64,000 nt of DNA, taken from NCBI RefSeq assembly GCF_000003815.2, contig NC_049995.1, forward strand, positions 4,045,747-4,109,746, given 5' to 3'. Positions 23,001 to 63,335 of this stretch are shown piece by piece (position 1 is the stretch's first letter; the number at the start of each line of letters is the position of its first letter). A program made the position numbers and the translations under genes. The DNA comes from Branchiostoma floridae (lineage: Eukaryota > Chordata > Leptocardii > Amphioxiformes > Branchiostomatidae). The notes below the pieces were generated by a model. It saw nothing but the letters and a program-made list of their open reading frames with translations, had not been told where the DNA came from and did not search any database.

Positions 23001-24167
23001 AATGCAACCCAGTAGATTTTTTACTACGTGGGATGCATACTTCAATGATCTACCACATTAGACCGTTTCCGACTTTCAAATTCGAAATTATGAATTTGGC
23101 CAATTACAGGATAGGATTTCGTCACGTGACCACATGGGCGCGTCCGACGTTTTCTGTTGTATGAAAGTTTAGCTTTTTACTAACACCAAATTATTGCTAT
23201 ACTTCTGTTTTCAAGAAGGTAATATAGTTTCTTTTCTGGTATATTTAGAAGTCGAACAGATACTGGGGGATGTACAAGGGTTTGGAGCAGATCCTGAGAC
23301 GACAGGGACTAAATGTGGGGATTGTCATGGGGGTAACGACCTCTGAACGCGGACATGACGAGATCCGCCACATGTAAGTCTGTTTTCCCTGTCTTTCTTT
23401 CTGTACCCATTTATTTCTTAAACTTTATGCTGTGTGCACAGATTTAAAGCCTATACATAAAGGGGCAGTCGCACAAGATACAGCAGCTGTTGAAAACTGT
23501 CGAAGAAGACAACTTGAGAAACATAGAATCGATAGACAGGATGTTTTATGCTTGTGTCAATCATGGGAAAGTATCTAAAGGGGCCACAACAAACTTTAAG
23601 GTAACCCTTTTGTAGAGGTGGTCTCTTGTACAGATTTGACATCTTTTATAATGATAGCTGCTTTGGAACTAGCGACCTACCCCCGGACAAAAATTTAAGC
23701 TTTGTTATCATCTCTTCCATTAAATTCATTCTAGTGACGCTGAACTTGAGAAGAGTGATGGATGTCACTCTTAAGTGAATAAATCTCTGTCTTTTTATCC
23801 AATCGTAGATATTGAATCGTATTTGAATATTATATACCTGGATGTCTAACCTTCCTAAACGTTTCAATGTTTTGTGTACGTTTTCAGGGTCTGGGATGTT
23901 CTGGACAGTCAGCACACTAGCGAGATGCCGTCAACAGGTCTACTTCTGGTGGAAATCGCCATCACATTCTGTGACCGAGTCCGTCTGTACGGTTTCTACC
24001 CGTTTGCTCGTGACCAACAAAACCACGCCATCCCTTTTCATTACTGGGATGCCTCAATCCATTTTCCTGGACCGGAGAACATTCACAATTTTGTCGCTGA
24101 GTTTCAACTTCTTCGAAAACTCCACGACAATGGAGTCATAGAGCACAAAATTGGTCCATGTAGATAA
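20059..24167 (+). CDS. ST8Sia-like sialyltransferase, six coding exons, apparent frameshift in exon 4
   Basis: This is a Golgi type II membrane enzyme moving sialic acid from CMP-sialic acid to glycans. Exons: 20059-20243, 20608-20805, 21770-21979, 22773-22951, 23249-23373, 23888-24167 (about 391 codons). A signal anchor ([16 protein letters not shown]) spans residues 37-52. Sialylmotif L ([20 protein letters not shown]) starts near residue 172; motif S ([16 protein letters not shown], then LYGFYPF) and a HYWD motif III are in the last exon. Phases join except inside exon 4: it begins in the [13 protein letters not shown] frame but must end in the frame reading DNSILFFP, one base out. The paralogue at 41060-45304 has an in-frame exon of 172 bp against 179 here. 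This is a sequencing error or a true lesion. Exon 2 is 114 bp longer than its paralogous counterpart. Confidence 0.85.
20876..21010 (-). repeat. Short interspersed repeat with (GAT)n tail, copy 2, inverted
   Basis: This is the inverted complement of 15602-15740, including GGGGTTATACCGCCCC and the trinucleotide tail (ATCATCATC). It lies in intron 2 of the sialyltransferase gene. Confidence 0.75.
21222..21846 (+). repeat. Tandem duplication carrying the 5' part of sialyltransferase exon 3
   Basis: Two units share the CCCATTGTCCCGG-like stretch (21264 and 21642), AATGTTGAACATG, GGGAAACGCT, an acceptor TTCTTCAG, and about 70 bp of exon 3 coding sequence (21535-21606 and 21770-21844). The first copy breaks off at CATACG and lacks the sialylmotif L part, so it is a pseudo-exon. 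An unrelated ~160-bp stretch interrupts the first unit. Confidence 0.85.
22003..22051 (+). repeat. (GTTT)n microsatellite
   Basis: About twelve TTTG units begin shortly after the exon 3 donor of the sialyltransferase gene. Confidence 0.9.
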
Positions 24168-33866: not shown

Positions 33867-34324
33867 TATACGCCAGAAAGCAACTACTCAAGCAAACCTG
33901 AGTACTGAATATGATTTTGGAAAAGGTCAGACGCTTAAGATAGCACCCGCCATCTTGCGTCAGTGACACTGAAGTGGTCTAGAATCCACTTTGTCTGAAC
34001 AGTGTCCGCTGTTTCTCAATCCTCCAAATGATATCAATCTTCAGATGGAAAACTCAGATAGGAAGAATTTCGGTACGTTGATATGGATTGCATTTGTTAT
34101 ATCAGAAACCATACATATGTATGGGTAAAGTTGATATGATTGTGGATACTTCTCTAAATGTCAAGACAGACAAACAAAATAAGGTGCATTATTGTCAAAT
34201 GTATGTCATGTTTTTGTTGTTGTTTTTCAAACTCACAGACATACAATCTCCACGAGGGACAGCTACAGTTTGTCCTTTGGCTTCTTTCGAGCACCAGCGA
34301 CGTTCCAACTGACGAAAAAAATAT

Positions 34325-35341
34325 ATGTCGGCTCACCACCCCATAACTACAGCTCCTAACGAAAATAGATCGTTCAGTGGTCTACTCGAGTGTGTTCTGT
34401 GGAACGTTCAAAACATAAGCGTGTCTTTCGACCTGGCTGAAGCCGCCTGCTCTGCTCATGTTCACGGTGTGATGTTGGGGACATGGAGCGCCATAATCTG
34501 TTTGCTGGCAGCGGTTTTCATCATCATCAACAACGCCATTGTTCTCTGCTCAATCGTCAGAACACGGTTAATCCACAAACTCGTCTACTTGCTCACAGCG
34601 AATCTGGCCATGTCCGACCTTCAAGCAGGCATAGGGCTTCTACTGTACACAATATCCATGGTACAACAGAGCTCAAGTCATGGCATCATGCACAGTCTGA
34701 CGTTCCTGATGTTTAGCCAGGCAATGTCTGTATCAAGTCTATGCCTCATGTCAATAAACAGCTATGTTGCCTTAAAGTACCCTATATTCTTCTACACTCA
34801 AGCCAGCGACATACAGAGATACACAGGCGTAGCCATAGTGTCTTCATGGCTCGTTCTCTCTGTGGTCTTTGCCTTGCCTAGTATGGGTTTGAACTGCCTG
34901 GATACACCGACGGAAAGCTGTTTCGGTCTTTTCCATATTGCGTTCATTTACGCTTTGGTACCCTTGTACGTCTTAATGATTATAATCATCCTTCTCATAA
35001 ACATCTTAACTTTCATAGCCATCAAAAAGCGACAGGGTGGAAGTCATAGACAAGGGCAGTGGGAGAGGGAGTACGAGAAGAACGTACACAGAGCACGGAC
35101 AGTGATGATTCACGCAGTAGTGACGTCCATTGCGTTTGTCTTCCCTCGTGTTGCAGTCGTGTCAACGTGCCATTTGGACCTAAAGACTTGTCTGATGGTA
35201 ACCGGGCCCGGAGGCCTGATGGTGCTGTTCGTTTTGAACTCGGCAGTCAACCCCATCGCAAGTATCCTCCGCACACCAGATTTGCGAGAGGGAACCTGGC
35301 TAGAATGGATGATTCCAAGAAAATGGGTAAAACAAGATTAA
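34325..35341 (+). CDS. Class A G-protein-coupled receptor, intronless, lipid-receptor (MECA cluster)-like
   Basis: This 338-aa seven-helix receptor has N-glycosylation sites at N14 and N30. Helix 1 is near 52-77 with an NN pair, helix 2 has NLAMSD (D98), helix 3 ends NSYVALKYP (145-153) in place of DRY, helix 6 has FVFP and helix 7 NSAVNPIAS (305-313) in place of NPxxY. It lacks the usual helix-3 cysteine. Instead it has paired cysteines within extracellular loop 2 (C191, C199) and loop 3 (C282, C289), an arrangement known from S1P, LPA and cannabinoid receptors. An in-frame TGA 15 nt upstream fixes the start. The tail is only about 20 aa after helix 7, and its stop codon lies in the target site of an inserted MITE. 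The ligand is unknown; an EDG/cannabinoid-like type is inference. Confidence 0.85.
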   Translation: MSAHHPITTAPNENRSFSGLLECVLWNVQNISVSFDLAEAACSAHVHGVMLGTWSAIICLLAAVFIIINNAIVLCSIVRTRLIHKLVYLLTANLAMSDLQAGIGLLLYTISMVQQSSSHGIMHSLTFLMFSQAMSVSSLCLMSINSYVALKYPIFFYTQASDIQRYTGVAIVSSWLVLSVVFALPSMGLNCLDTPTESCFGLFHIAFIYALVPLYVLMIIIILLINILTFIAIKKRQGGSHRQGQWEREYEKNVHRARTVMIHAVVTSIAFVFPRVAVVSTCHLDLKTCLMVTGPGGLMVLFVLNSAVNPIASILRTPDLREGTWLEWMIPRKWVKQD

Positions 35342-36599: not shown

Positions 36600-38400
36600 T
36601 ATGTATAGGTATGGTAGCGTTTATTTCTAAGAAGAGGCATTGCTTTTACCAAATTAAGAGTATTTTCCGCTCAATATACCACATGCGCCGTTCAATAAAG
36701 CAGCGGCTTCAAATGAATAGCTCCTGCTGTGTTTGCGTGTTTAGTTTAACCAAGAAAAGTAAATATCCTGTGTGAAAGCTACATATAACAGATACAATCT
36801 TTCCGATATCTTTCCGTTACATTTGAGCTGACTTTACATAAAAGGGGGGAGGTTTAAGCAAACCTCCCCCCTTTTATGTATAGGCGGAAAAAAGATGTCG
36901 GAAAGGTAGCGTTAATCATTACTTGAAGAAGAGGCATTGCTTTTACCAAATTAAGAGTATTTTCCGCTCAATATACCACATGCGCCGTTCACTTAGGCAG
37001 CGGCTTCAAATGAATAGTGTTTGCGTGTTAAGTTTAACCAAGAAAAGCAAATCTCCTTTGTGAAAGTTACATATAACAGATACAATCTTTCCGATGTCTT
37101 TCCGTTACATTTGAGCTGACTTTACATAAAAGGGGGGAGGTTTAAGCAAACCTCCCCCCTTTTATGTATAGGTGGAAAAAAGGTGTCGGAAAAGTAGCGT
37201 TAATCATTACTTGAAGAAGAGGCATTACTTTTACCAAATTAAGAGTATTTTCCGCTCAATATACCACAAGCGTCGCTTACTAAAGCAGCGGCTTCAAATG
37301 AATAGCTCCTGCTGTGTTTGCGTGTTAAGTTTAACAAAGAAAAGGAAATCTCGTCATGTGTGAAAGCTACATATAAAAGATACAATCTTTCCGATGTCTT
37401 TCCGTTACATTTGAGCTGACTTTACATAAAAGGGGGGAGGTTTAAGCAAACCTCCCCCCTTTTATGTATAGGTGGAAAAAAGATGTCGGAAAGGTAGCGT
37501 TAATTATTATTTGAAGAAGAGGCATTGCTTTTACCAAATTAAGAGTATTTTCCGCTCAATATACCACATGCGCCGTTCACTAAAGCAGCGGCTTCAAATG
37601 AATAGTGTTTGCGTGTTAAGTTTAACCAAGAAAAGTAAATCTCCTTTGTGAAAGCTACATATAACAGATACAATCTTTCCGATGTCTTTCCGTTACATTT
37701 GAGCTGACTTTACATAAAAGGGGGGAGGTTTAAGCAAACCTCCCCCCTTTTATGTATAGGTGGAAAAAAGATGTCGGAAAGGTAGCGTTAATCATTATTT
37801 GAAGAAGAGGCATTATTTTCCGCTCAATATACCACATGCGCCCTCACTAACGCAGCAGCTTCGCCTGAATAGCCCCTGCTGTGTTAACGTGTTGAGTTTA
37901 ACCAAGATAAGCAACATTTGCTCCTGGTTAAAACTTACATATAGCAGATACAATTTTTGGAATGTATAGGTGCAAACGGAAAGGTAGCGTTAATTATTAT
38001 TCTTAAAAGAGGCATTGCTTTTACCAAATTACGAGTATTTTCCACTCAATATACCACATGCGCCTCTCACTAAAGTAGCGACCTCGCCTGAATAACTCAT
38101 TCTGTGTTAGCGTGTTTGACGAAACCAGGAAAATCAAAATATCCTCATGGAACATATGGTATCTTTCCAATGTCTTTACGTTACCATTGAGCTCACTTTA
38201 CACAAAAAGATGCAATGTACAGGTGCAAGAAAGATGTCGGAAAGGTAGCGTTTACTTTTTCCAGTAGTATCGTATGTTACCGATATCGTTCCGTTACCTT
38301 TGCCTTTGAGCTTACTTTTCAGAAAACTCTCTGAACTTTCTTTACAGAGGTGGAGATTGATAGTTACAGAAAAAGATGTTGGAGAGGTAGCGTTGAAAGC
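36600..38400 (+). repeat. Satellite array, ~290-300-bp units with internal hairpins
   Basis: Unit landmarks are GGTAGCGTTAATCATTA, TTGAAGAAGAGGCATT, TTTTCCGCTCAATATACCAC and TACAATCTTTCCGATGTC. Each central unit has a 46-nt hairpin with perfect 21-bp arms and an AAGC loop. Hairpins start at 36835, 37123, 37423 and 37711 (spacings 288, 300 and 288). Units beyond 37900 are decayed and lose the hairpin. Confidence 0.9.
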
Positions 38401-41059: not shown

Positions 41060-44000
41060 CTACATATGATATCTACAAGGAGCAATTTTGTGCTCAATGA
41101 CACCACTGTTGTGAAGTCTTCGAAGAAGTTCAAACTCGGCGGCAAAATCGTGAGGGTGTTGGCGATTTAGAACACTTTCGATGGAGGTAACGTTATCCCA
41201 GTAGTGGTAGGGGACTGTGTGGCTTTGTTGGTCCCGTGCAAACGGGTAGAAACCGTACAGGCGGACGGAATCACACAAGGTGATGGCGATTTCTACCAGG
41301 AGTAGCCCTGTTGAAGGTCTGTCTTCACTGTTGTGATCCTTGTCCAGAACTTCCCAAATCCTAGAGAGATAGACAACAAACATTGAAGAATGGATTCGAC
41401 TTCGATGTATACTTCATGTAATCATGGAAGTTCATCTGTGTTGGTAGTAATCATTAGATACTAAACTTTCTTCTAACACAAAGGTATACAGGGATCAAAT
41501 TTTCAACGACCAGTACTGTCGCCTTCTTCAGGATTAATTCTGATGACCAATCACTTCAGAATGTAATCTCGCGAGAGTTACAGACACGTGATCTTATTAA
41601 CAACGTGATCTTGTGGATACGTGACGTCAGCAATTGGTCAAACGTGTCAGGAAGTTTATTAAGCCCACCATCTTTATTTGTTAATGGCTGGAGTGCCCTT
41701 ATGTATAACTGCCTCTTTTAAACCTCTTACAAAGTAGTCCTGTCCAGTATTATGACTTTGTCCAGTGAAGCCAGACAAACTTCAAACTATATAATTCATG
41801 TAACGTTAGTGGACAAAATGCATTAATTAGTGGGAATGAAATGCGTTTCTATGCGTGTACGATTTCATGTTTATCGGAGTTAAGACATCGTTGATGAAGG
41901 TTAGACACCAGGTAAACAAAGTTGTTGGATGTTTAGGTTTTACGTAGATCTGTGTGCCCTAATAAGTGAGAGCGGAAAGAAAGAAAGAAAGACAGTGAAA
42001 ATTGACGAGATTCATACTTACTGACGACGCATGCCGTCCTGCCCAAGTTCAGAAGTTGGTACTCCCATGACGACAACAATATTCAGTCCCTGTCTTCTCA
42101 TGGTTTCCTCCAAATCTCTGCTGTGTTGCAAATACTCCCTGGTCGATCGCGACTTCTACAGAGATGGAAAAATGCATTTGTTTTATTTATTTATTCATTT
42201 GGCTGTTATTACATTTTCTACCATGTTGCACACTTTTGTTCAATGGTTTTATGATTGTATTCTTGAGTAAAGAATTTGAGAAAACAAACTGACACACTTA
42301 CTGGAATGAACAATATCGCGTTGTTGGCTGTATAAATGTTCCTATCCTGTCGCGCTTTCCTTTTGCCATGGAAGAGCTCGTCTACCCATTTGGACATGAT
42401 AGTGTTCAGAACCATCATGGAAGTCTTCTTCCCCACGTCTTTGGTGTAACCGTCTTGGGGGCTCAGGTTGAACCTTAAAACGAAGACTAAATTTACGGTT
42501 TAAACTGTAATAAAAGACTTGTACGTAACGAAAATCATCAAAATCCATTCATTCATTCTTTATTGAGTTATCAGTTTCCAAAGTCTCGAACAATAGTGGC
42601 CCTGCACATATTGCCATTATGTGCACATATTGCAATATTCTGTGTTATGATAGTATCTTAACTTCAAAAGGGTCCCGTGGCTATCACCTAGGGTGGGTAC
42701 CGGTACGGTGTCCCGGTGCGAAACCGTATTTTTTCTTGTTGGATCGAAGCGGACCAGAACCTGAATTTTTCTGTACCGGTCCCCATCCCTACTCTCACCT
42801 GATGACAAAGTCACTCGTATCAATTTCACCACCGCAACCGCTGTTTAGCAGGATCCCACTGCTGCCCACCAGTGCGCATGTGCCGTAGTGACGTAATGGC
42901 GAAACCCCCTGACACTCTCCTGTCGCTAGGCAACGCCGTATGAGGTTGTCGTCTGAGTTAACTCGTACTATAGCCATCGTTTGCCTCAAAGTGGATCTCA
43001 ACACAGTCCTGCAGAAAAATAGAAAAATGAATAAGCATAGTCTTCGAAACGACATCTAAACAATCAGTGTCAGTTACAGGATCAAGCATACCATTGTTCA
43101 TTATAAGGAAGACTATTGAAAACATCAGCAAGCAGCTGTGACATTTTGGTCATAATTAACATCCAGAAAGTTCATATGAAATATCTTTGAAAAACTGTAA
43201 CTGAGAGAGTTTATTAGTGTGTTAAAAACTAACTCTAACCTTGTGGCTATCCCATGCCACAAGATTAGAGTTCCTGTCTTCTATAAGTAAAAGCCGGTCT
43301 CGCAAAATGTAGCCAAAAACGAATTCCCTAGGGAATGGATGCGTGGAATTTTAGAATTCCTGGCAATTCAATCGTAGTACTATACCAACGGCTCCACCCT
43401 TGAGGCGTCGCCAAAAAAATAAATAAATGTAACATTGACTTCAAAATCAAAACTCAGCACAAACTGATCAAATATGATTACTTCACAAATGTAGACTTGA
43501 ATTAGTGGTGAAAGACATGGAAAGAATCAACGCTACTTTTATTTTATTCATATTCTTTTAATGAGCATCAGACAAAAACCAACATCTGCCTATGGTATTC
43601 TACTCAGTGAAACATAAAATAACAGTCAGAGTTAACAAAGAGAACTAATAAATACAACACAGACATGCAACAGCGATTGTCATGAAAATAAACTAAGTCA
43701 TACACAAGGCTGGCTTACCAATGTGGGCAATGGAATTTAACTAAGTGAATCGCCCTGTCTTGGAAATATAGTTGAACACAAAGTCGAATATTTGACAGTT
43801 TATTGAACGCAGGAGGAAAGGGCTGCCCATAATGAGTAGGATACATAAGGTCAGAGGAATTGATATTAGGAATTGAGGGCATCAGACGAGAGTACTTCTT
43901 CTAGGTTGAAACAGGACACGGATTGCAACATATGAGTCGTTTCATATCATATAACTGGCAATGTAACAGCGCTACTTACTTCATTTTTGAAAACTCTGCT

Positions 44001-47827: not shown

Positions 47828-48155
47828 AATTACTGTACACGTTCTTGTGTTTTAAGCTCTTCCTAATGGGCACGATAACGTGCATTTGTATTGTTGTTCA
47901 GACTATGTTTTTGTACTTTTCGTGGACCTGTGGCTGGAATGTATGTACACCTGAGAACCGTACGTTTAGACGTAAAGGATATAAACGGGATCATTACTGT
48001 ACACGTTCTTGTGTTTTAAGCTCTTGCATTTGCTAATGGACACGACGTGCATTTTTATTTCGCTGATCGTAGGTTTTTGTACATGTCTCGAATCTGTGGT
48101 TGGAATGCAGACCTGAGAGCGGTACGTATTGACTTGAAGGAAATTGGAAAATTAT
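47828..48155 (-). pseudogene. Two decayed copies of the acyl-CoA synthetase terminal coding segment
   Basis: Two blocks (about 47828-47990 and 47993-48150) repeat the sequence around the end of the last exon: TTTTTGTAC, TGTGGNTGGAA, CCGTACGTTTAGAC or a variant, with a shared ACGTTCTTGTGTTTTAAGCTC flank. In the first copy the SKRT.LR stretch is still readable on the minus strand but an insertion destroys the end. They lie directly downstream of the real stop codon (48230). Confidence 0.7.
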
Positions 48156-48229
48156 TGTAGACGTTTGTTTCGTTTGACGTTACCCCGAATGGACAACGTA
48201 AATATATAGAGATCATCAGATCGGATTAT

Positions 48230-51200
48230 TCAGACCAGGTTTTTGTACATGTCTTGAATCTGTGGTTGGAAAGTGGACCTAAGAGCGGTACGTTTAGACT
48301 TGAATGTCGGAGTGAGCAGACCGTTCTCCAGGCTGAAGAGTTCCGGATGGAGGTGGATGTCCTTCACCTGTGGAAACAAAAGTTCTCCGTAAAGTATAGA
48401 GTTTCTCGTATGCTTTGTATAGTTGTGTGCTTCTTTAAGTTTGTATGGACAGACAAAGACAAGATGGCACTGCACTCAAGTAACAGTGCCACAAAGTACA
48501 GACAGAAGGTAAAGGTACTCTTTTTGCCTCTCTGACCAAAGTCAGGTACCCATTTTTACACCTGGCTGAAGTGATGATGAGGAAGGTTGTGTAAAGTGCC
48601 TTTCCTAAGGGGGGGGGGGGGGGGGGCACAGCAAGTATCGAGTCCAACACTCTACCAGTAACGCAACAACAACGCTTTGTTTAGTTGTATATATTGTTTG
48701 TTACTACACAACACAACAAAAACAATCATAACCTCTCTGTGAGTTAAGTACATCTTCTTTTACCTGTTCAAAGGAATGCAGACCACGTTGTTGCCCTAGG
48801 CTGGTTACCTCTTCTAGAATGGCATTCCTTACAGCCTGTATGCGTGGAAAGAAGAAATTGTAATTAGAAGAACTTTGACCATTTTGTTGCAAAGATGTGT
48901 CAACTTTGCGTCGTGTATCAAAGCTTGAAGAGCCACATCGTCGTCAATGTTGTTATAGTGTGGGCTGACTCTGTCAGAAATTGCTGAATTGCGAGAATCT
49001 TACAACTGACTAGGTTCAATCACAAGGATCTGTAACGGTTGCCATTCGGCCCTCTTGTGAGCAATTGTCCCAGGTGTGGCCATAGGGCACAAAGAAGGAC
49101 CCCGACACCTTTCCAATCACTGTGGGATTTTCTTGACGTACTCGAGGAATGGCTTAATTTCATATCCTATCCTAGGGACGTTCCTGTTCGAAGCTTTGTA
49201 CTAATTTTTATGAGTGAAGTCAGGTACTTGTGAAGGACCTTTCCTACGAGAGAATCATCTGGGCATGTCAGAATCTGATTCTGGGTCAACTAATTTGATC
49301 CTTACGCCACATGATGCCAAAATTGAAGAACGTACAAAGCTGTAAACACCTTGTCCATCGGAGTATGTCAAAATCAAGACCCTAATTACGCCTCAAGATG
49401 TCAGGAAAGGAAGAATAATTGACGTATGCACAAAGTTGTCATCACCTTGCTCTTGCACAGCTCGTGCATCGTGCCCTCCATGTTCAGGTTGTTCTTGGCC
49501 CAACTTGGCAACACCTCAGGGTCGGGGACGAAAATACCAACACACGACGCCTGGGAATATACAACACCAAGGGAACGTTTTAGCAGCTTGTTTAGAATAC
49601 ATCACAATATACATCAATCCTTGCAACTTCTTTGATTTACGACAAATGTATATACGGATAAAATTTTCAACGACCACTGTCACCTTCTTCAGGATCAATA
49701 CTGTATTCTGAAGAAGGTGACAGTGGTCGTTGAAAATTTTACCTGTGTGTACTTTTGTGTTGGAAGAACGTTTAGCATTGTACGATGATTACTATCATTG
49801 CACGGATGAGCTTCCATGATAACTATGATAAGATCATCTAACCTTCAGACTCTCTCCATGAACAAACGCCTGCGCCACCAGCGGGCTGCCTGTGTAGATA
49901 CTCTCCACCTTCTCTGGAGCAATGTACTCTCCCTGGAGTTGGTGCAAAAAAAGATGTATAAATCCAACTGGTATGTGTATCATTAGCCTCCATAGCAGGC
50001 TCTCTGGGTCCCTTTTTCGTCTTTTTTTGGCTCATAATACAGTTTTGCTGGCCAGCAGTACAAGCGAACCAGTACAAATAAATGGCCAGCAAAATGTATT
50101 ATGAGCCAAAATGACGAAAAATCCGGCCGGATATTAGGGCTGCTATAAGTGAGATTTAATCAGTCTTAAATCTAACTATTCTGTCATTTTTCTTAGATGA
50201 CAAAGGGAAACGGAACTATCAAGAAAGTTTGACTTTAATAGTTTACCTGGGCAAGCTTGAAAATGTGCTTCTTTCGGTCAATGATCTTGAGAACGCCGTT
50301 CTAAAAAAAATTATCATGATACAAAATAACCGATGAAACATAAGTCTACTAAGGACACACAGCTTGAAATAAATAGAAATAGAATTCATACAAATGAACC
50401 AATGTCACAGGAATTGAAAGAACAGAATGAAATAAAAACCCAACTCAAAATTGAAGCAAATTGAGATGTAAGAACGTGTACACAAAAAAAAACGAAGGAA
50501 TGAACGAACAAATGAACGAATGAATGGTCGATTAAATGGATACCGGTAGCCACTGCCCCACGTCTCCTGTATGCAACCAGCCGTCCTCATCAAGCGCATC
50601 TGCTGTTTTCTCGGGGGCCTTGTAATACCCCTTCATGATGTTTGGTCCTTTAGCGCACACCTGTCGTGAACATCACAATACTCATGGACAGGAAACACCC
50701 AAGTGTTGTCTTGTCTTATAACTTTCAATGGCCCAACACACGCCTTTTTGGAGTCGACTAGAGGCTTTTATATCGTATTTTTCGTTCCCCAAAACTGCCT
50801 GAACGGAAATGTGACATCAGCTTAAATACCGGTAATCATGGCACAGTCTAAAATTCTTGACGGAATGACGCCTAACAAAACTTTTTCTTTAATGTTCCTA
50901 TTTCATTTACTACATATATGTATTAACCTGCAGCTTCTGGCTGAAATAGAATAGACCGCTGTACAAAACAGGATCCTTACATATTGATTTATACTAAGTA
51001 TCACTTCATTTATGTTCCTTTGCATGATTTGAATTAGTATTATTAATTCTTTGTACTTATCATTTGTCTGTTTCTCGTTGTCTGAACTTTTTTTTGCAAT
51101 TAGCCCACAGGCAAGAAGTTGCAATAAACTTATTGTACAGTTATTTATTTATTATTATTTATGTTAGTTTTGGAATAATGATAAAAACCGTATCCTTACC

Positions 51201-54200
51201 TCCCCCTGGTTGTTCTTGGTGTAGTAGTCCATCTCGGGAATGTCAACAAGCTTGATGAGATTACAGGTCAGTGGTGAGCCCACGTGACCTGAAGAAGAAT
51301 AGATCAACATTGGCTAGAATTCCATATCAAAATGAACATGTACACCATTTAGCTGTAACGTTTAAACAATAATTCATTTTCAAGTTTTTTTAGATTTTCG
51401 TTCACTAGGAAAACAAAATCATAAAATATGTATCACGAGGCTTGATGCATTTCTGTAAAGCAGAAGAAATATTACTGTCACAGTGACTTACCGGTGCTGT
51501 GGTCACCAGGTATAGTGAAGGAAACTCCTGCATTCGCCTCTGTTTGTCCGTATCCTTCATACACCTGGGAAATAAGAGATAGCTTGTTTGTTCCTTTGTT
51601 ATAACACGTCTTTGGCCGATGACAAAATGGGGAGTAAAAGTGGGAATAAAAATGAAATAATTTATCTACATAGAATCCTCTCGTATTTCACTGTCAGAAC
51701 CAGAACGGAGCCGATACCAACTTCTCACGTGACACTCACGGACGGTCACGTGTTCTGAGCGATTCGGTACTCCTCAATGTCAAATCCCTCACCATAGAGG
51801 AAATTGAGTATTGTCAAACAAGGTAAACAGCTTACCGTACAACCAATAGAAAAAGCTTACCGTACAACCAATAGAAACAGCTTATCGTGCAACCAATAGG
51901 AACAGCTTACCGTACAACCAATAGAAACAGCTTATCGTGCAACCCATAGGAACAGCTTACCGTACAACCAATAGAAACAGCTTACCGTACAACCAATAGA
52001 AACAGCTTACCGTACAACCAATAGAAACAGCTTACCGTACAACCAATAGAAACAGCTTACCGTACAACCAATAGAAACAGCTTACCGTACAACCAATAGA
52101 AACAGCTTACCGTACAACCAATGGCCGCCCTTAGGAAAGTCATGGCTGCCTCCGACAGAGGAGCCGATCCTGTGATGATAGCCCTCACACGACCTCCCAG
52201 AAGATTCTACATACGTAAGGTATAACACAGTTATAATTACATGACATCAAATTCTCTTGGAACTAATTGAAGCAAAGATGTTTTTAGCAACCGATGATAT
52301 CGTGGTAGGCATATGTTGAATAGTCTGTGAAATGCAAACTCCGGGGCTAAATTGGCTCCTCCAGTGGGTCGAAAGAAGCGTGATTAAATCAGGCTATATG
52401 TTGTAGAACTTACTTGGACTTTGCCAAAGATCAGCGTATCCCAAATGCTGTCACGTCTGACAATACCCCTGAAACACAAAAAACAATGTGTTAGTTAAAA
52501 GATTATTAATGGTAATTAGGTACATCATGATGATGATGGTATATCAAAAACATTCTTTAAAATCTTACTGTGATAGCTAGGTCGTACTTGTTGCCTTTAT
52601 TGCATTGAAAAGCAATAACTTCTGTAAAAATTGACGTTAACGTTACCTTTTGACTTCCGCAGATTTGCTTCTCAAGGCTATCTCCAACAGCTTGGACTTG
52701 ATGGCGCTACCCTGAACTCCTGCGTTTACCTGGGAAAGATATTGAGAACAAAACTAGATTCGAACCATTGTTCTGACAACAGGGTTGTTTGTGAATACGC
52801 TATACTCAAAACAATGGTCCATTTCGCTACAATTGAATCTGTTAGGTGGAGTATCGAATTTTCACGTCAACAACGCTAACTGCCTCTGTTAAGTAATACC
52901 AAGTTGGACTGTAGAAACTTGATAAAAAAGAATGACTATCAACTCTCCTATACTTAGTTCTTGATCTTTTCTTGGACTAATAAGCCTGCTCAAAACACGT
53001 CAACGTCTGTCACCGTAGTGCCGGTATAATCTGTTCATTTTCCAATCGGTCCAACATCCGGTCTACAGAATTTTTTTCAGATCCGTTATCCGGACCGGTT
53101 CAACGAAGCAGGTTTGTACCGGTACCCACCTCAAGAAAGCAAAATGCCGAACAATACATCTCCGTTGACAAGAGATGTTGAGAAGGACTATACCGGAATA
53201 GAATCGACATCGAGGACCTATTCTACCAGGTAAACCGACTTTACCGACCTTGTCATATATCTTGTACATATATATTTCATGGAAGAGGGCTACAGGAAGA
53301 GTAGAGATTGCATGTCAACACTAGTGAAGATTCCTTAATAAACAAATAAACGAATCTACTTTGTCATATATCCTGTTGAGCAGACGAGGGACCGACGGGA
53401 AGATGGTGGGCCGGAGTTCCCGGAAGTCATCCAGCAGTTTCTTGACGTCACCACCGAAGAATCCGATCTGAACACCGGTCATGAAGAACATCACCTGGAA
53501 AAACGGCGATGAAGGTTAGACATCAGGTAATAAGATACGCAAAAGAGCAATTACTCAATCAACTGGATATGATGTGGTTAACGGTCAGACGTTTCAGATG
53601 ACATCTGTTATCTTTCGTCAGTGAATAATTGCTGTTTAGAGTATCATGTAAAAAGCTAGCATGGGTACAATCCGGATAGTAGTTCGTGCCTATGTTCACT
53701 TCAGATAAGCGATCCATACAGTGTATAATGAATTTCAGAGCTAGAAGCGACTGTATATAGTATAAAATGCATATAGTATAAAATGAACGCCGGAGCGAAC
53801 TACTTTCCGGATCGTACCCAGGCTCTTAAAAACCAGCATAATTGCAAAATTTGCATCAGTTACAGTTTTGTTCTCCAAGATAGGGGTTAAACAATGATGT
53901 TGCAATACCCACATGTAGCGACCTCTCGAACTGGTGAGGAAGAGGCAAGTAGGACACGTGCATGTCATCAGGCCCCAGACACAGGTAGCCCTATACGAAA
54001 ACAGTAATGCAGAAGTCATCATTACGAACATCTTAACAAGGCGGTATTAAAAGCATTAATAACACTCCTTCGGTAGTAATCTGTAGTTAGAAAACCATCC
54101 TATATTGCTACAGGTCACGGGTTGGGTACCAGTACATCATACCGGTACAAAACTGGTTCTTCTTCTTGGACCGGTACGAAAAAAACGGACTTGAAAAAAA

Positions 54201-57200
54201 TCAGTGGGCCGGATTTTAAACCGATCAGAAAAGGAACAAAATACATCGGCAGGCGTCCACATGTTTGGGGGGCTAATACCCGTCCAAGAAGTGTATTCCT
54301 CTAAACAGATTACTTCGTAGCAAAATAGATCATTGTTCTGAGTATCATCAATTCACAGTTCAGTTCAGGTCCGGACCAGCTGGACCTGATCCTCTGCACC
54401 TGAACCGTACATGTACCTGAATTTTCTCTACCGGTATACACTCCTATACTCTTGGATAATAAAGATTTTATTCTTAAAGGTGATTAAGTTTCCGCAGGAT
54501 TTCATGATGTAATCAAAGATGGTGTAATCTCTGACGATATCAGAGATGGCCACCGACCTCCACATGTTTCAGCACAGCACTGATGTTTGTGACGATGTTC
54601 CTGTGAGTCAGCATCACGCCTTTAGGAAGTCCTGAAAATGATGGAAAAAACTGTGATCCTGATGATTTGCACCAAGGTTCTGAAGTGTTTATCATTGACA
54701 AGAAGTGTCTTTTGTGATTATCCTCTTACTAGTGAATTAATGTGATAGAAGAGTGCTATCACATTTTTTCACAAATAGAGACAATATTTTATCTATTTTA
54801 CCTATTACTAGTGACTTAATGTGATAGAGGGATGCTATCACAGTTCTGTCCTAAAATACTACTCAGGGCTAAATAAATGTGATAAATAATTACGTCTCTT
54901 TTGTGACAAATCATCGCATGTTCAGATCGAGCTGTAAGCCTTCAATCTCGTAGCTCTTCTTTGCTCCCAATGTCACAACGTTTTGTAACAACGTCCTAGA
55001 AAGTACACTTTACATGGCCAATGGAAAATACTTACTAGTAAGTCTAAATTGAATGTATCTAAAGTAGCTTAAACTTTAATTGTAACTTTTTTTTAATTTG
55101 CCAATCGAAACGCAAATTAAATATTTTATTGCAAACCCGTAGTTCCGCTGGTGTAGCAAATCGTCAGCAGGTCTTCTGGACGAGGTGGCTAAGAAATAAT
55201 ACAAGTTACTAAAAACAACCAAATGAACGCTAATGCTGAAAACAATTGACTCTGCCATCATCAAAGGTTTTAGTCTTATAAGCATGATATAGTTTAACTG
55301 TCTAGTAAGTTCACATGCTCTCACGTGACTTCAATTGACCAATCAATTGAATTGTTTCAAGTCAGACGTGTAATGTTTTTGACTTAATAACAACTCTGAC
55401 CTGCTAGCGCGCTCTTATAGGTAAGTATAAAGTATAAGTTTATCTATGCAAATAATGTTAGTAATAAAAGTAACTCACAACAGCTTTGTGTGTGTTTCTC
55501 CTTCCAGCCTCCTGTTTTAAAGAAGAAGAAAAATACTTGTAAGATGAAATGCCTTTTAAAACTTCTTACAAAAAGTTCCTGTCAAGTGAAGAATTTTCAT
55601 TGGTCACCAAATCAATGACGAAACAAGCCCATACCTCCACGTCATCAAACGTCATCACTTCAACGCCCAATGAGGTGGCTCGTTTCTTCAGGTCATCACT
55701 GATCTTTTCCATGACCACGATTCTCTTGACCACAGACACCTCCTGGGTTATGTCGAGGATGGAGGCTACCTTCTTCTCCACGTCACATACAATAGTATGG
55801 AGATTTCCTGAAAGAAAAGGTAAGCAGTCGGAACTAGGGGTGGGTACCGGTACACTACCGGTACAAAAACTGCACAACTCCGTCCTGAAAAAATTTGGTG
55901 GACCGGATGTTGGACACACGTTTCGGGGCTTACCGATCGAAGAAAATAACAAGACTGAAGTAGACAAGTTTTCACATACAGGTCTAGGTTCAGGTCCGGA
56001 CCTGTCGTCGGAGGTTACCCTCCGTCACACTAGAGTAATCAGATTTCTGGGTACCATCCTCTGCAGTTACATTAGTGTCGCTGGCTCTCTCTGTTCGCAG
56101 GTCACCGAGTGAAGCAAGCTAAAAGGGAGAGCTGATGATAACTACGGAGGACGGTAACCATGCTTTTAGGCTTCACCTCATTGACGGCGTGCGCAATCTG
56201 GTACAACATGTGGTAATTGCAGTACGGAAACACACAGAGAGACAGGCAGACAGACAGAGAAAACAACACAGTACTATGCTCTCTTGAGGTTTTGCTGTAT
56301 TTACTTACTGTTCTATGAACATGTGGAACGATACAGATCTAGAGTTATGTTGTAATATTTTCCAGTCACATTTTCCAGCTTGTGCTCTTTTTAGTGCCAA
56401 GGTCAATGTTACCCCTCACCCTGTTCGATGACAAACTTGATGGCCTGTGATCCCAGCGTGTCATACAATGGAACAACAACCATGGAGAACGCACTGCATG
56501 CCTGCTCAGCAATCACCCACTGTGACACAAAAACACAATTTGTGAAATTTGTCATCAACTTTCACAGAGACGGAGGACGTTACAGGCTTCTTTGATTCGC
56601 TGATGACGTCACGTGCAAGGCTCGGTCTTTTCTGTTGTCGTGTTGGATTGCAGTTTAGGTTGTGACAAAAATACTTAATTGACGTTTTACTCTAAATCAA
56701 GTCGAAGTGTAGATGGAGTTACAATCGTAGCAATCATTGAGAAAACATTTTACTGACCTCTGGACGATTCTGGGAGAAGATGGCGACAAAGGTGTCCTGT
56801 CCGGCAGATAGGCCCTTCTCCAACAGACCCGACCCGAACCGGAGGGCCCTGTCGTGTACCTGCACCAGAGAAAACTATCATCAGCACAAAGGAACAAGTG
56901 AAGGGTTCTAACATTTTCCAGATGTCCATCACCAAGCCTACGGGTATACTGACCTTGAGTGACCCTACCACATACCCAATATCAGTCAGCTAGTTTGTGT
57001 GAATACACAACGCAAACACCGTTGTTCGAGGCTTATATTAAATAACGGCCCCTTCCGCTATAACGGGTCGCAGAAAACAGTATTTATTCGCGACTTGAAA
57101 AAGCCGTTCCAATTTTGAGATTGTATAACTGGGCAGGCAAACTTATTTCATTTTCACATATTTTGTACATTGTATTTCGAACTGTTCAGTTTTTGATTGT

Positions 57201-58902
57201 GCACCCTGTCATAAATTTTGAGGCGTCAAAATCTCTCACTTTGGGGTCCCTAAGCATATGTAAATCGAAAGTTGTTCTTCTACCAGACAAGGCTACCATC
57301 TGCATGGTTGAGTCATGCAAGGTCAAAGAAGCCTGGGGTATTCTGATACCAACACTGAATACGTTAAATTTTCATCAACAGTTCTTTTGTGCCGATGACA
57401 ATTTGACTGTGAGATGGCGAAAGATCAGCAACATTCTTCTTTTGTGCAGTCAGACCTTGTCCTCAAAACTACCGTTACATGGGGTTGAGTGAGTCTATAG
57501 CTAGTAGCCTGTGCCTGGTACTGGTTGATGATTAAAAGTGCTGACACAACATGCCAACTGGACATATCGTTTAGACTGCTGAGTTCTGATCGCCAAAGAA
57601 AAAGCCCATATCGCGATCGTTCGATGCTAACATGGACCGGAAAGGGCATGGCTTGTGATTACATTTCTGCCTTGATTTTGATTCTTTATATTCTTTAAGT
57701 AACACATATTTTGTTTATAACGTTATGTATAACCCTTTTTACTTACGTTACTCATGCTACAATCTGCTATACCCCACGTGCACACTTCGATCAAAGAATA
57801 TGTGTTGATTTTGTAGACTGGGTCCAATTGAAAAACAATTAACTCGACAGCGTCAAAAGGATCTACCCAGCTGAAAAGTCGATAATGAAAATAAGCGTTC
57901 AAGCCTGTCTTACTGAGACATATAGATATGAGTTATATCATAATATTTATGACACCTGTTGGTATGTCATCCACTGGTAAGGCTCATTGGGTGCTGCTCG
58001 CCAGCCAAGACAACGTCCTGTACCCCCTGTGGAAAAATGTAAATAATGAATAAAGTAGTTCTAAATGTTCTAAGTACAATATAATGTATCTTCTATAAGG
58101 CATTAAACAGTGGCTATGTTTTCTCAACTTTCGAAACTTTCTAAGAGTGCTTTTTGTTGATCATTCACATAGCGCACTCACCATGTTGTTTGTATATGAA
58201 GGAAAGGAGGCGCTATAGACTTCTGAGTTCTACTATAGTCACGTGCCAGCAAGATCATGTGACCAAAGTGATGGGTCATTAAACCTGAGGACCGCAGGAA
58301 ATTTTGGTACGTTGTAGTTTCTTTCTGTTTGGAGCACAAAAATTTCTGTGTTTATAAGTATCATGATACGAAGGAGGGGATAGGATATATACAGTAGAAG
58401 CCGCTTAATTGCACGGCCAATTTGCCAGTGAATTTTGTGCAATTATCCGGCTGGTGCAATAATGCGAAGTTATCTTGCTGGACCGTACCGGTTTGGGATT
58501 TGGGCATTCCGTGCAGTTAACAGAAGTGTGCGTTAAACCGGTGTGCAATTAACTGGCTTCTACTGTATATATATCTATAGGATAGACTTCGAAGCATTCT
58601 AGTCACTTGTCCGTACGGTCATGTGACCAAAGTGATGGGTCATTAACCCTGAAAAGAAGGCTGAAATGTCCGTAAGCTGTAGTTTCGTTGTACTAGGTCG
58701 AAACTTTCCATTACTACAAGAGTTTAGTCCGACATAACTTTAAAATCAGACAACATTTTAACGAAGGAAGAAAAGGACAGAACGAACCTGTTAACCTGAT
58801 ACCCCTCTGAAACCCTTCGTAAGTGGTGGTGACGTCATCGTAAATGTATTCGAGCAGTTTCCCATCCTTGCACCTGGTAGAAATGCGAGCTCCGTCCTGA
58901 CC
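48230..58902 (-). CDS. Long-chain fatty acid CoA ligase (ACSL1/5/6-type), 21 exons, N-terminus not found
   Basis: It activates long-chain fatty acids with ATP and CoA via an acyl-adenylate, usually at ER or mitochondrial outer membrane. Exons in order: 58902-58788, 58026-57956, 56859-56758, 56519-56420, 55807-55635, 55511-55479, 55188-55137, 54631-54558, 53990-53913, 53494-53360, 52729-52647, 52468-52414, 52206-52111, 51564-51492, 51288-51200, 50660-50544, 50300-50247, 49932-49843, 49550-49446, 48835-48764, 48367-48230. All phases join, giving 634 aa. Landmarks: [14 protein letters not shown], the ATP loop [11 protein letters not shown] (about 210-220), YEGYGQTE (391-398), DGWLHTGD (469-476), [16 protein letters not shown] (487-502), ending [15 protein letters not shown]. 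Vertebrate ACSL1 is about 698 aa, so a membrane anchor exon lies further upstream or outside. Exon 1's 3' end (58788 or about 58797) is the least certain boundary. Confidence 0.93.
48500..48665 (+). repeat. SINE- or LINE-like repeat in the last intron of the acyl-CoA synthetase gene
   Basis: The stretch GTAAAGGTACTCTTTTTGCC to AAGTATCGAGTCCAACACTC, with a G-run at 48610-48626, looks like an interspersed retroposon. AGTATCGAGTCCAAC is a possible box-B-like word. This is recognised by general look only. Confidence 0.35.
49657..49741. repeat. Perfect-arm hairpin
   Basis: AAAATTTTCAACGACCACTG plus TCACCTTCTTCAG pairs with its exact complement (CTGAAGAAGGTGA plus CAGTGGTCGTTGAAAATTTT). A single arm occurs at 41489-41530. 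It lies in the intron between exons 18 and 19 of the acyl-CoA synthetase gene. Confidence 0.85.
50010..50116. repeat. Inverted-repeat hairpin
   Basis: TTTTTGGCTCATAATACA, then TTTTGCTGGCCA, is matched by TGGCCAGCAAAA, then TGTATTATGAGCCAAAA. Arms are about 40 bp. It lies in the intron between exons 17 and 18 of the acyl-CoA synthetase gene. Confidence 0.8.
51828..52127 (-). repeat. 25-bp minisatellite built from a splice donor, 12 units
   Basis: CTTACCGTACAACCAATAG-type units start at 51831 and recur every 25 bp exactly to 52106. The last unit is the genuine 3' end and donor of acyl-CoA synthetase exon 13 (minus strand: GGTTGTACG, then GTAAGC). Ten units keep the GT donor; two (51881 and 51931) read ATAAGC instead. 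Adjacent units are nearly identical, so the array is young or homogenised. Confidence 0.95.
53040..53135 (-). repeat. ACCGGTAC-bounded dispersed repeat, inverted copy
   Basis: AACATCCGGTCTACAG, GGACCGG and TTTGTACCGGTACCCACC match the complement of the 42690 and 55835 copies. It is intronic in the acyl-CoA synthetase gene. Confidence 0.6.
53505..53640 (+). repeat. Dispersed repeat family B copy, fullest version
   Basis: It reads GATGAAGGTTAGACATCAGG, AATTACTCAATCAACTGGAT, AACGGTCAGACGTTTCAGAT, ATCTTTCGTCAGTGA. This copy shows the order of the family B words seen piecemeal elsewhere. Confidence 0.65.
54117..54450 (+). repeat. ACCGGTAC-bounded dispersed repeat, long copy
   Basis: It starts GGGTTGGGTACCAGTAC and ends TCTCTACCGGTATACACTCC, with FRG-like internal words (GGACCGGTACGAAAA) and a CAGGTCCGGACC palindrome. 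It is intronic. Confidence 0.55.
54720..54895 (+). repeat. TACTAGT...AATGTGATA repeat, second locus
   Basis: Two units match those at 24640-24830, followed by the GGGCTAAATAAATGTGATA flank seen inverted near 24565. Confidence 0.6.
55835..56005 (+). repeat. ACCGGTAC-bounded dispersed repeat copy
   Basis: It starts GGGGTGGGTACCGGTAC and includes TGGACCGGATGTTGG and CAGGTCCGGACCTG. A 187-codon plus-strand frame spanning it and the antisense of acyl-CoA synthetase exon 5 is an artefact. Confidence 0.6.
56860..57955. other. Intron of the acyl-CoA synthetase gene; no feature supported
   Basis: Open frames here (for example 57115-57492 plus) carry no recognised motif or splice-site pair. I treat them as chance. 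Confidence 0.4.
58390..58567. mobile_element. 174-bp pogo/Tigger-like MITE
   Basis: The termini CAGTAGAAGCCGCTTAATTG and CAATTAACTGGCTTCTACTG are inverted repeats flanked by TA. The CAGTAGAA-type end is characteristic of pogo/Tigger-class elements. It lies in the acyl-CoA synthetase intron between exons 1 and 2. Confidence 0.85.
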
Positions 58903-59930
58903 CTGTATCGGGGATAAAAACTTTAATTTAGGACTACTAAAGTGTTGTTTTGTACAAATATGTTTGTTTGTTTGTTTGTTTGTTTTGATCTGTGTGCAAA
59001 ACTATTTGAATATAATATAGTGGCATCATATAGGGCGGAAGATAGATTAAAATGATAAGGGAATGTTGGGTTGGCTCATGAGGTCCAAAGTTGTGTAGGC
59101 AAGAATTCGAGAGAATTTCACAATAAAACATTTTTATTTAAGGACACAATTCGAGTTTTCATGCAATGAATAAAACAAGAGATTCACAAAAATGTATGGT
59201 GGGGATATGGAATCTTCGATTTCTTGATTTTGCAGGAATTCGCGAGAATTTCACAAAAATGAATAAGACAAGAACATTACAAAAACTCCAAAGGTATACT
59301 AGGGCTGTGGGGTCTTCTATTTCTTCTGTATTTGGGGATACAATGTTGCTTTGTGTTGAACATTTTGTGAATATTTAGCGTGACAAAAACGCTACTCATA
59401 AGTCGGTTTTCTCACGCACGTAAAATTAGCTTGCCTGACGAGTCTGTGGGCTCAATGACAGGCGGTTAGCGGTTATAATGATAATAATGATAAAAATAAT
59501 GATAATACATCTGGTATATCATTTTCAGCCAGTAGGTGCCCATTTTTTTTAGTAATGAGGTTGATTTAACGTGCTCGAGGCACGGAGGCTCCACGAACAG
59601 GTACCCCGTTTTACGCCCCTTCCGAAATACGAATTTGTGCTACGACCGGTGTCGCAGCGATTTCGCCCCCCCCTCCCCAATTAATTACGAAAAATTTCTA
59701 TCAACGCTTCAAAGAAAGCCGAATCATAAAATCATCGGTATTCGATAGTTCGACGCCGAAGACGCAAAAAAATGACTTCACACATACTTAAATTCGCTTT
59801 AAGTGACCATATGCACACATCGCTACACATACACATACTTGGTCATACTTCGCACGCACACACACGAGCGCGAGATTTTGTATTTTCTGAAGAAGCTTGT
59901 TTTAGGAATCCTTAAATTCTCACACTGTGC
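58903..59930. other. Upstream of the recognised acyl-CoA synthetase exons; simple repeats
   Basis: It contains (GTTT)n at about 58960-58985, two similar GAATTCG(A/C)GAGAATTTCACA stretches (59104 and 59237), an ATAATGATAA repeat (about 59478-59508) and a half copy of the CCGGTGT terminus at 59645. The missing 5' exon or exons of the acyl-CoA synthetase might be here or further right, but none was identified. Confidence 0.4.
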
Positions 59931-61419: not shown

Positions 61420-62676
61420 TCATCGTCCGGGGAGCCCTCTTCTGCGTCTTTGTGGTAGTGGACGATCATTGGCGACGGAAGATGCTCTGGCAAGACCCCG
61501 CAATATCGACGGCACGTCTCGAGGACAGCCCGCTCCGGCACTGTCCGTCTTCAGAGTAGAAACAATTCTGGCAGGATGCAACGGCACCGGGCACAGACTG
61601 TCGTAAGTGTTACGAGGAGGTAGGCCTCGGTCGTCGGCATGGCAGGACAGGCGATTGAGAAACAGGGGCTCAGCGGCTGGAATGGAAAAGAACGGCTTGT
61701 AACTGCCCCGAACCCATGAACGGTACATGTAAAATTATTCAAACAACACGGCCATAACAATCACAGCAGGACAAGACGGGGACAAAGGCAGGAATCTGGA
61801 GTCGGCTATCATCAAAGGGCGAGGGCCACACAGATGGCACAGATAAGGACCCCAAAGAACGAATGGAATTTGAATATGCACACAATCACATTGGTCCTAG
61901 TAAGGAGATTACAGTTCCTCCTTGGTTCTATAAAGATTTAGCCAGCCAAAACAATAGGACAGAAAAGTTTAGAAGCAACCGTTACGGCTCTTACAGCACA
62001 AAATAATATGAGAATTTAACTAACTATGGAACGGGCAATTTGTAAACAAGCCGGGGATGACATGCGGGGGTTCCAACTGAAAGAGAAGTGATCTATCATA
62101 CAACAATCTTTACAAAAAGATCACACTACTAATTATTAAATACACAAAACACTAGGAAGGGATAACAGACATTGCTGACAGACATATACGGAACTAAGAA
62201 CGGTAACTGCTATTTATATACAATCTATGTACTAGAGAGCTACACTACTCACTTCTTCAAGTTCTTGGTCCGGTAGCGGCTAGCGGCGGCGACAACTGAT
62301 GTTCAAATCTACTAGTAGTTTCAAACCTAACTGCTGTCACCAGCTGGTCTACTATTGGTCTAGTCAAGTCATGTGACTTCCTAATATGGTCTTGTTACCT
62401 AAGGACTCCTCCAGATGGTTCCAAGCAAGTTAGTGTCATCCATCATGCCTGTTTCACAGAAACACATGGCATTGTGCATTATTTTTGTGAATAAATGCAT
62501 CATGTACTTACCAGTTTCAAAGTTGTACACAGCAGCAAACGCTGTGGCGCGGTGTAGGCTGTTATCTGCAGCGACTTCCCCAGTGCCTGGCGCACCGTTG
62601 ACATGCCAACGCACTGGTCTGCTCGGCACTTTGCACAGCTTGCATAACCGCTTTACGAGTGCCTCGTGATATTGTC
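61420..62676 (-). CDS. Possible two-exon 3' end of an unidentified gene
   Basis: On the minus strand, an open frame ending at a consensus donor (GTAAGT, exon end 62512) reads LCKLCKVPSRPVRWHVNG and then ADNSLHRATAFAAVYNFE. A second exon (61676-61420) follows a good acceptor (TTTTCCATTCCAG). It joins in phase 1 and reads AEPLFLNRLSCHADDRGL, ending in an Arg-rich tail (QRRRRGLPGR) and TGA. Splice signals and phase agree, but no family is recognised, and the 5' limit (shown here near 62676) is unknown. The upstream 72-bp minisatellite is open in this frame for 250-300 bp. It may equally be mobile-element derived. Confidence 0.3.
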
Positions 62677-62679
62677 CGG

Positions 62680-63335
62680 ATATGGACCATTCCCACATAG
62701 CAACGCTGGTATTCAATATCATGAGTGACTTTTTGTCATGATATTGTCCGGATATGGATCTATCCCAAACTGAACCGCTGGTGTGGAGTGTTTTGACTGA
62801 ACTTTGTTCAAGATATTGTCCGGATATGGATCTATCCCAAACTGAACCGCTGGTGTGGAGTGTTTTGACCGAATTTTGTTCAAGATATTGTCCGGATATG
62901 GACCTATTCCAAACTGCACCGCTGGTGTGGAGTGTTTTGACTGAACTTTGTTCAAGATATTGTCCGGATATGGACATATCCCAAACTGCACCGCTGGGGT
63001 GAAGTGTTTTGACTGAACTTTGTTCAAGATATTGTCCGGATATGGACCTATCCCAAACTGCACCGCTGGGGTGGAGTGTTTTGACTGAACTTTGTTCAAG
63101 ATATTGTCCGGATATGGACCTATCCCAAACTGCACCGCTGGGGTGGAGTGTTTTGACTGAACTTTGTTCAAGATATTATCCGGATATGGACCTATCCCAA
63201 ACTGCACCGCTGGGGTGGAGTGTTTTGACTGAACTTTGTTCAAGATATTATCCGGATATGGACCTATCCCAAACTGCACCGCTGGGGTGGAGTGTTTTGA
63301 GTGAATGTTGTTCTTGATATTGTCCGGATATGCAA
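62680..63335 (-). repeat. 72-bp minisatellite, about nine units
   Basis: The unit TTGTCCGGATATGGACCTAT, CCCAAACTGCACCGCTGG, GGAGTGTTTTGACTGAACTT, TGTTCAAGATA repeats every 72 bp. The period is a multiple of three, so frames stay open on both strands (24-residue repeats such as QFGIGPYPDNILNKVQSKHS). Units at the left edge are more divergent. Confidence 0.95.

Follow-up and report, generated by a model that had tools for sequence, protein, structure and literature searches.

A 25-bp minisatellite over a 5' splice site in an amphioxus acyl-CoA synthetase gene

Introduction

When a minisatellite copies a 5' splice site into an intron, the spliceosome is offered several donors where one would do, which raises the question of whether the extra donors have any function. 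Such an array lies in an acyl-CoA synthetase gene within a 64,000-nt stretch of the Branchiostoma floridae genome (GC content 41%), referred to here as the window; all positions are counted from its first base. A first-pass annotation had read the array as twelve exact units that form an expandable ladder of competing donors. On re-analysis, the observation behind this proposal proved real in part and its interpretation was partly supported.

Comparable structures have been described in amphioxus. Minisatellite-like repeats over exon-intron borders, termed 'mirages', are reported for Adh3 and for the globin genes BflGb6 and BflGb9 in PMC3087553, which credits Canestro et al. 2002 for the Adh3 mirages in B. 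floridae and B. lanceolatum. This source gives units of 10-72 bp for Adh3, mentions both length instability and somatic instability there, and proposes mirages as a path to intron gain; RT-PCR and Adh3 data are described as suggesting that regular splicing is undisturbed at mirages (PMC3087553). Lancelet PGBD5 is reported to carry mirage-like repeats, 60 and 108 bp in length, that span splice sites and are also said to leave splicing undisturbed; troponin C is mentioned in the same source (PMC3902484). Not every intronic minisatellite need be inert, however, as one in C. elegans is reported to be over-represented near regions of alternative splicing (PMC4039745).

Results

The gene model and its exon 13 donor

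The coding exons of the model join through GT-AG introns into a single open frame that ends at the stop at 48230 (Table 1); the model lacks one or more initial coding exons, which would lie upstream of 58902. The encoded protein gave a Pfam AMP-binding match at residues 53-456 (E 1.1e-88), and we take the gene to be a long-chain acyl-CoA synthetase, putatively ACSL1/5/6-like given its resemblance to vertebrate ACSL. The two best PDB matches were 5msp ('Thioester reductase domain-containing protein') and 6oz1 ('Oxidoreductase'), followed by two labelled carboxylic acid reductase.

The join between exons 13 and 14 sits inside the AMP-binding match, just before YEGYGQTE. Alignments with 5msp and 6oz1 run without a gap over a 13-residue stretch at this join, which supports the boundary donor (last exon base 52111, first intron base 52110, ...GGTTGTACG/GTAAGC) as authentic. 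The end of exon 13 with its GTAAGC donor is indeed the first unit of the array, and the exon that follows the array is the YEGYGQTE exon, both as had been annotated. Unit 1 takes in the last 12-14 nt of exon 13, and 286 of the 546 nt of intron 13 consist of the array.

Table 1. Positions of the array, its gene and other features of the window
Feature	Position	Strand	Basis or description
25-bp minisatellite, 12 units	51825..52124	-	TRF and unit-by-unit register
Unit 8 in the 14+11 register, with ATAAGC as its donor and 3 substitutions	51925..51949	-	unit comparison
Unit 10 in the 14+11 register, with ATAAGC as its donor and 2 substitutions	51875..51899	-	unit comparison
Unit-1 donor ACG/GTAAGC, sole full-length-giving position of 12	52105..52113	-	translation with each donor
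Unit-3 donor, GTAA giving an in-frame TAA in any donor-4-or-later transcript	52055..52063	-	translation
Acyl-CoA synthetase gene model, 21 coding exons, 634 aa to stop	48230..58902	-	open frame, GT-AG joins
Exon 13, 96 nt	52111..52206	-	open frame through all joins; gap-free alignment over 13/14 join
Intron 13, 546 nt, GT-AG	51565..52110	-	gene model
Exon 14 (VYEGYGQTE...), phase-0 join to exon 13	51492..51564	-	gene model; alignment
Exon 21 duplication, whole region	47897-48304	-	
Exon 21 duplication, copy 1, 68 nt	48304-48237	-	near coding end of exon 21
Exon 21 duplication, copy 2	48138-48071	-	166 bp downstream, 90% identity
Exon 21 duplication, copy 3	about 47971-47897	-	about 77% to copy 1
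Foldback in intron 18	49642-49758		two 54-nt arms, 89% complementary, 9 nt apart
28-nt inverted pair (89%)	53049-53076 and 55888-55915		inside dispersed repeat
72-bp tandem repeat	62668-63332		9.2 copies, 93% matches
288-bp tandem repeat	36629-37814		4 copies, 92% matches
Sialyltransferase GT29 loci	21708-24164 and 41063-43055	+ and -	open-frame matches
Uninterrupted 342-aa open frame, rhodopsin-type GPCR match	34313-35338	+	7tm_1 E 7.3e-13
Nicotinate phosphoribosyltransferase-like exon	6114-6419	+	NAPRTase_N E 3.3e-13

Anatomy of the array

Read on the minus strand, the array unit consists of the exon-side CYATTGGTTGTACG (14 nt) and the intron-side GTAAGCTGTTT (11 nt), and this 14 + 11 register was used to compare units. 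In it the array measures exactly 300 bp without indels, while the TRF row covers 51825-52122 (11.9 copies, 94% matches, 0% indels). The first-pass annotation was right that an array exists, but its bounds of 51828-52127 lie three bases off the best fit. Nor are all twelve units exact copies as it had claimed, since only six of them (units 2-6 and 12) are identical and the others differ by one to three bases. The unit count is that of one assembly.

Unit 1 departs from the common sequence by one mismatch, with CC in the exon where the array has CT. Single mismatches also occur in units 7, 9 and 11, with two in unit 10 and three in unit 8. Units 7 and 9 are identical and carry the same substitution, units 8 and 10 have two changes in common with one extra in unit 8, and the substitution in unit 11 is its own; units 7-8 and 9-10 therewith look like a copied 50-bp dimer. 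GT is kept in ten units and replaced by AT in units 8 and 10, matching the count of ten and two given earlier. A 12-copy array of a 25-mer is not due to chance. Judged by its sequence, the locus is a minisatellite that multiplies a 5' splice site. No further copy of the unit was found in the window within 7 mismatches, and Rfam gave no match at the gathering threshold.

Donor strength and reading frame

All ten GT donors of the array read ACG/GTAAGC. Pairing with the 5' end of U1 has the same predicted energy of -8.2 kcal/mol for each of the ten, against -1.5 kcal/mol for the two AT units. Among the other 19 donors of the gene model, five are predicted to pair with U1 more strongly than the array donors and one ties. 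In sequence terms the ten donors could compete; being equal in predicted U1 pairing, they leave donor sequence by itself unable to single out donor 1.

Reading frame separates donor 1 from the other positions. When the gene model was translated with each of the 12 donor positions in turn, donor 1 alone carried it to the normal stop and a full-length protein, and none of the 11 downstream positions (9 of these with GT) did so. Donor 2 (+25) shifts the frame and leads to a stop after residue 399, two codons beyond the final complete codon of the addition, and donor 3 (+50) shifts it to a stop after residue 436. Positions 4-12 (+75 and up) all stop after residue 406 at one common in-frame TAA, which comes from the GTAA of the third donor itself. 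This recurs by construction: the 25-bp period moves the frame by one base per unit, so the TAA of GTAAGC falls in frame at every third unit.

It had been proposed that downstream donors shift the frame unless three units are added. An addition of 75 nt does stay in frame, but it offers no usable exception, since the in-frame TAA is already present. The idea of a ladder of competing donors would fit the equality of the donor sequences, whereas an expandable functional ladder is not supported, none of the downstream positions being productive. The premature stops from downstream donors are followed by at least six further junctions of the model. A premature stop with junctions downstream is expected to expose an mRNA to decay, and use of the downstream donors would yield truncated mRNA that is probably decayed.

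Predicted folding of the array

The RNA strand of the array has a predicted minimum free energy of -69.4 kcal/mol, which does not stand out from dinucleotide shuffles (z 0.47), as 129 of 200 reach this energy or a lower one. Twelve exact units likewise fold no better than 12-fold repeats of shuffled units (z about 0). Their energy was reached by 44% of 150 dinucleotide-preserving shuffled units and 49% of 150 mononucleotide-shuffled units, as well as by 35% of 300 random 25-mers from the window, each repeated 12-fold. A special RNA structure was rejected on these grounds, and so was a DNA single-strand fold, all 200 shuffles folding at least as well.

In the predicted minimum-energy fold, the two halves of the array pair with each other in a long regular hairpin (copies 1-4 with 4-7). 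Donor 1 was the most accessible of the 12 in two of three window settings, by a tiny margin (0.018 versus at most 0.015). Its accessibility was 0.000 in the third setting, with others up to 0.013, and all of these values are tiny. Accessibility leaves the choice of donor unexplained, since the margin of donor 1 is very small and disappears in the third setting.

Position of the array relative to splice junctions

We compared the location of the array with random placement in this one gene (48000-59100, with 41 junctions of the gene model). In this interval, 8.9% of 25-mers span a junction and 4.3% span a donor; a seed unit over a junction is only slightly out of the ordinary. Random placement puts a 300-bp array over a junction 68% of the time. 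Of all random placements, the array takes in more than 20 coding bases in 63%, none in 32% and 1-20 in 5%, and the real array belongs to this last class. Among the 50 TRF rows of the window with a score of at least 40, one lies over a junction of this gene; 12 of the 1905 coding bases fall within it.

With 8.9% of 25-mers spanning a junction, random geometry suffices and a special cause for the location is not needed; a junction-seeking mechanism may operate but is not required by the random-placement figures. The location would fit a seed placed by chance, from which the array spread into the intron, and arrays within exons would presumably be removed by selection. Location alone does not show a boundary preference, nor is a single gene enough to dismiss one. 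All 41 junctions were also searched for duplication within 600 nt, and donor 13 was the only one to stand out. Near donors 8, 10 and 17 the matches amounted to 16 of 24, which 9.65% of sampled random positions also reached.

Discussion

Relation to known boundary repeats

By its sequence, the array fits the structural definition of an amphioxus mirage. The unit spans an exon-intron boundary (12-14 exon nt plus 11-13 intron nt, 12 units), splice signals are copied in many but not all units (GT in 10 of 12), and the authentic exon is intact. Its 25 bp also fall within the 10-72 bp reported for Adh3, the globin units being given as 150-160 bp (PMC3087553). The mirage of BflGb6 is described as 3 or 6 copies of a 150-160 bp unit at an intron end and exon start (PMC3087553), whereas the present array lies in another gene and has 12 short, near-identical copies at a donor. 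The PGBD5 repeats are longer and are described as imperfect (PMC3902484). The spliced, animal-type genes of the window, its two sialyltransferase loci and its GC content are also in keeping with amphioxus.

Outside lancelets, human segmental-duplication genes are reported to contain minisatellite-class repeats, some at boundaries, with an average of four 30-bp units (PMC2812944). These repeats are proposed to give rise to novel introns and transcripts often keep the repeat in an exon (PMC2812944), whereas the extra copies in ACSL are intronic in the gene model. Tandem alternative donors such as GYNGYN resemble the array in placing several candidate donors at one exon end, but they are described as lying few nt apart (3, 6 or 9 nt, PMC2279118) and giving subtle isoforms, in contrast to the 25-nt spacing and solely truncated downstream products found here.

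The ACSL donor array is not named in titles or abstract openings among the matches listed. It adds a new locus to a phenomenon already described in lancelet genes, and, with ten donors of one sequence set in 25-nt steps, it offers a clean natural experiment on donor choice by the spliceosome. It is also a short-unit case of repeats at exon-intron boundaries, from which new introns have been proposed to arise (PMC3087553).

Origin and consequences of the array

We consider it very likely that a minisatellite was seeded over the exon 13 donor and spread into the intron with its extra donors near-silent, an event of the mirage kind. The seed would be a tandem duplication of a 25-bp segment that by chance spans this donor. 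Ordinary turnover of units, through slippage or unequal exchange, would then have extended the array into the intron; this turnover probably included duplication of a 50-bp dimer (units 7-8 and 9-10). Its persistence could be explained by the integrity of the authentic exon and donor 1, the extra copies being intronic. The spliceosome most likely picks donor 1, and the extra donors, by analogy with the published mirages, would act as near-silent decoys.

A regulatory role, in which copy number sets the use of downstream donors and the resulting premature stops tune ACSL output through nonsense-mediated decay, would be consistent with the equal predicted U1 pairing of ten GT donors and with a premature stop from every downstream position ahead of at least six model junctions. 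Varying array lengths in related lancelet cases (PMC3087553) and the over-representation of the C. elegans minisatellite near alternatively spliced regions (PMC4039745) point the same way. Such a role is nonetheless improbable, since the published mirages are reported without disturbed splicing (PMC3087553, PMC3902484), two of twelve donors have been lost to AT, probably through one mutation copied with the dimer, and the sameness of the remaining donors needs nothing beyond recent copying. A shade less probable again is that the array is a length-variable rheostat, heritable and possibly unstable in somatic cells, whose copy number determines how much of the ACSL mRNA is decayed. If this were true, each added unit would be one more unproductive donor of equal strength, and reading through three donors would always end at the GTAA stop through the frame rotation of the 25-bp period. 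The peptide-inserting ladder of the first-pass annotation, with three added units lengthening the enzyme, has the divisibility of 75 nt by three in its favour. It is barely conceivable given that only 1 of 12 donor positions yields the full-length enzyme, that additions of 75, 150 and 225 nt all stop after residue 406, and that an insertion would fall inside the AMP-binding match, right before YEGYGQTE.

Neither the assembly nor RNA structure offers a better account than chance seeding over the donor. The copy number, or even the whole array, could stem from a mis-assembled shorter duplication: the source is a single assembly, units 2-6 are identical, and in the amphioxus draft genome the mirage of BflGb6 haplotype 1 seems to have been assembled wrongly (PMC3087553). 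Internal variants in units 7-11 mark positions within the array, however, and make such an error about as improbable as a regulatory role. Common long and Sanger reads exceed 300 bp, and the array fits within them. It is more doubtful still, and highly unlikely, that the repeat is kept for an RNA structure that hides the extra donors and leaves donor 1 free. The predicted hairpin between the array halves and the top rank of donor 1 in two of three settings would suit this idea, but shuffled sequences and shuffled-unit repeats often fold as well, and donor 1 loses its rank in the third setting.

Other features of the gene and the window

A second tandem duplication occurs in the gene, with copies of a 68-nt segment near the coding end of exon 21 (Table 1). 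Located beyond the stop, the additional copies could act as decoy or alternative 3' ends. Intron 18 contains a MITE-like foldback, and a 28-nt inverted pair lies inside a dispersed repeat. This repeat, which contains stretches resembling GTACCGGTA, was recognised by eye in three introns of the gene (4, 8 and 10) and is possibly a short mobile element.

Elsewhere in the window, two segments (8581-8823 and 9443-9748) resemble the nicotinate phosphoribosyltransferase-like exon by eye, with no Pfam match at E 0.01. The larger tandem repeats include one of 72 bp, a period divisible by three, over which open frames of 258 and 211 aa run on the minus strand and of 86 and 104 aa on the plus strand. 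Sialyltransferase family GT29 is represented by four open-frame pieces, two per strand, which we read as two loci; a (GTTT)n run at 21997-22051 starts 17 nt past a likely donor at 21980, identified by eye.
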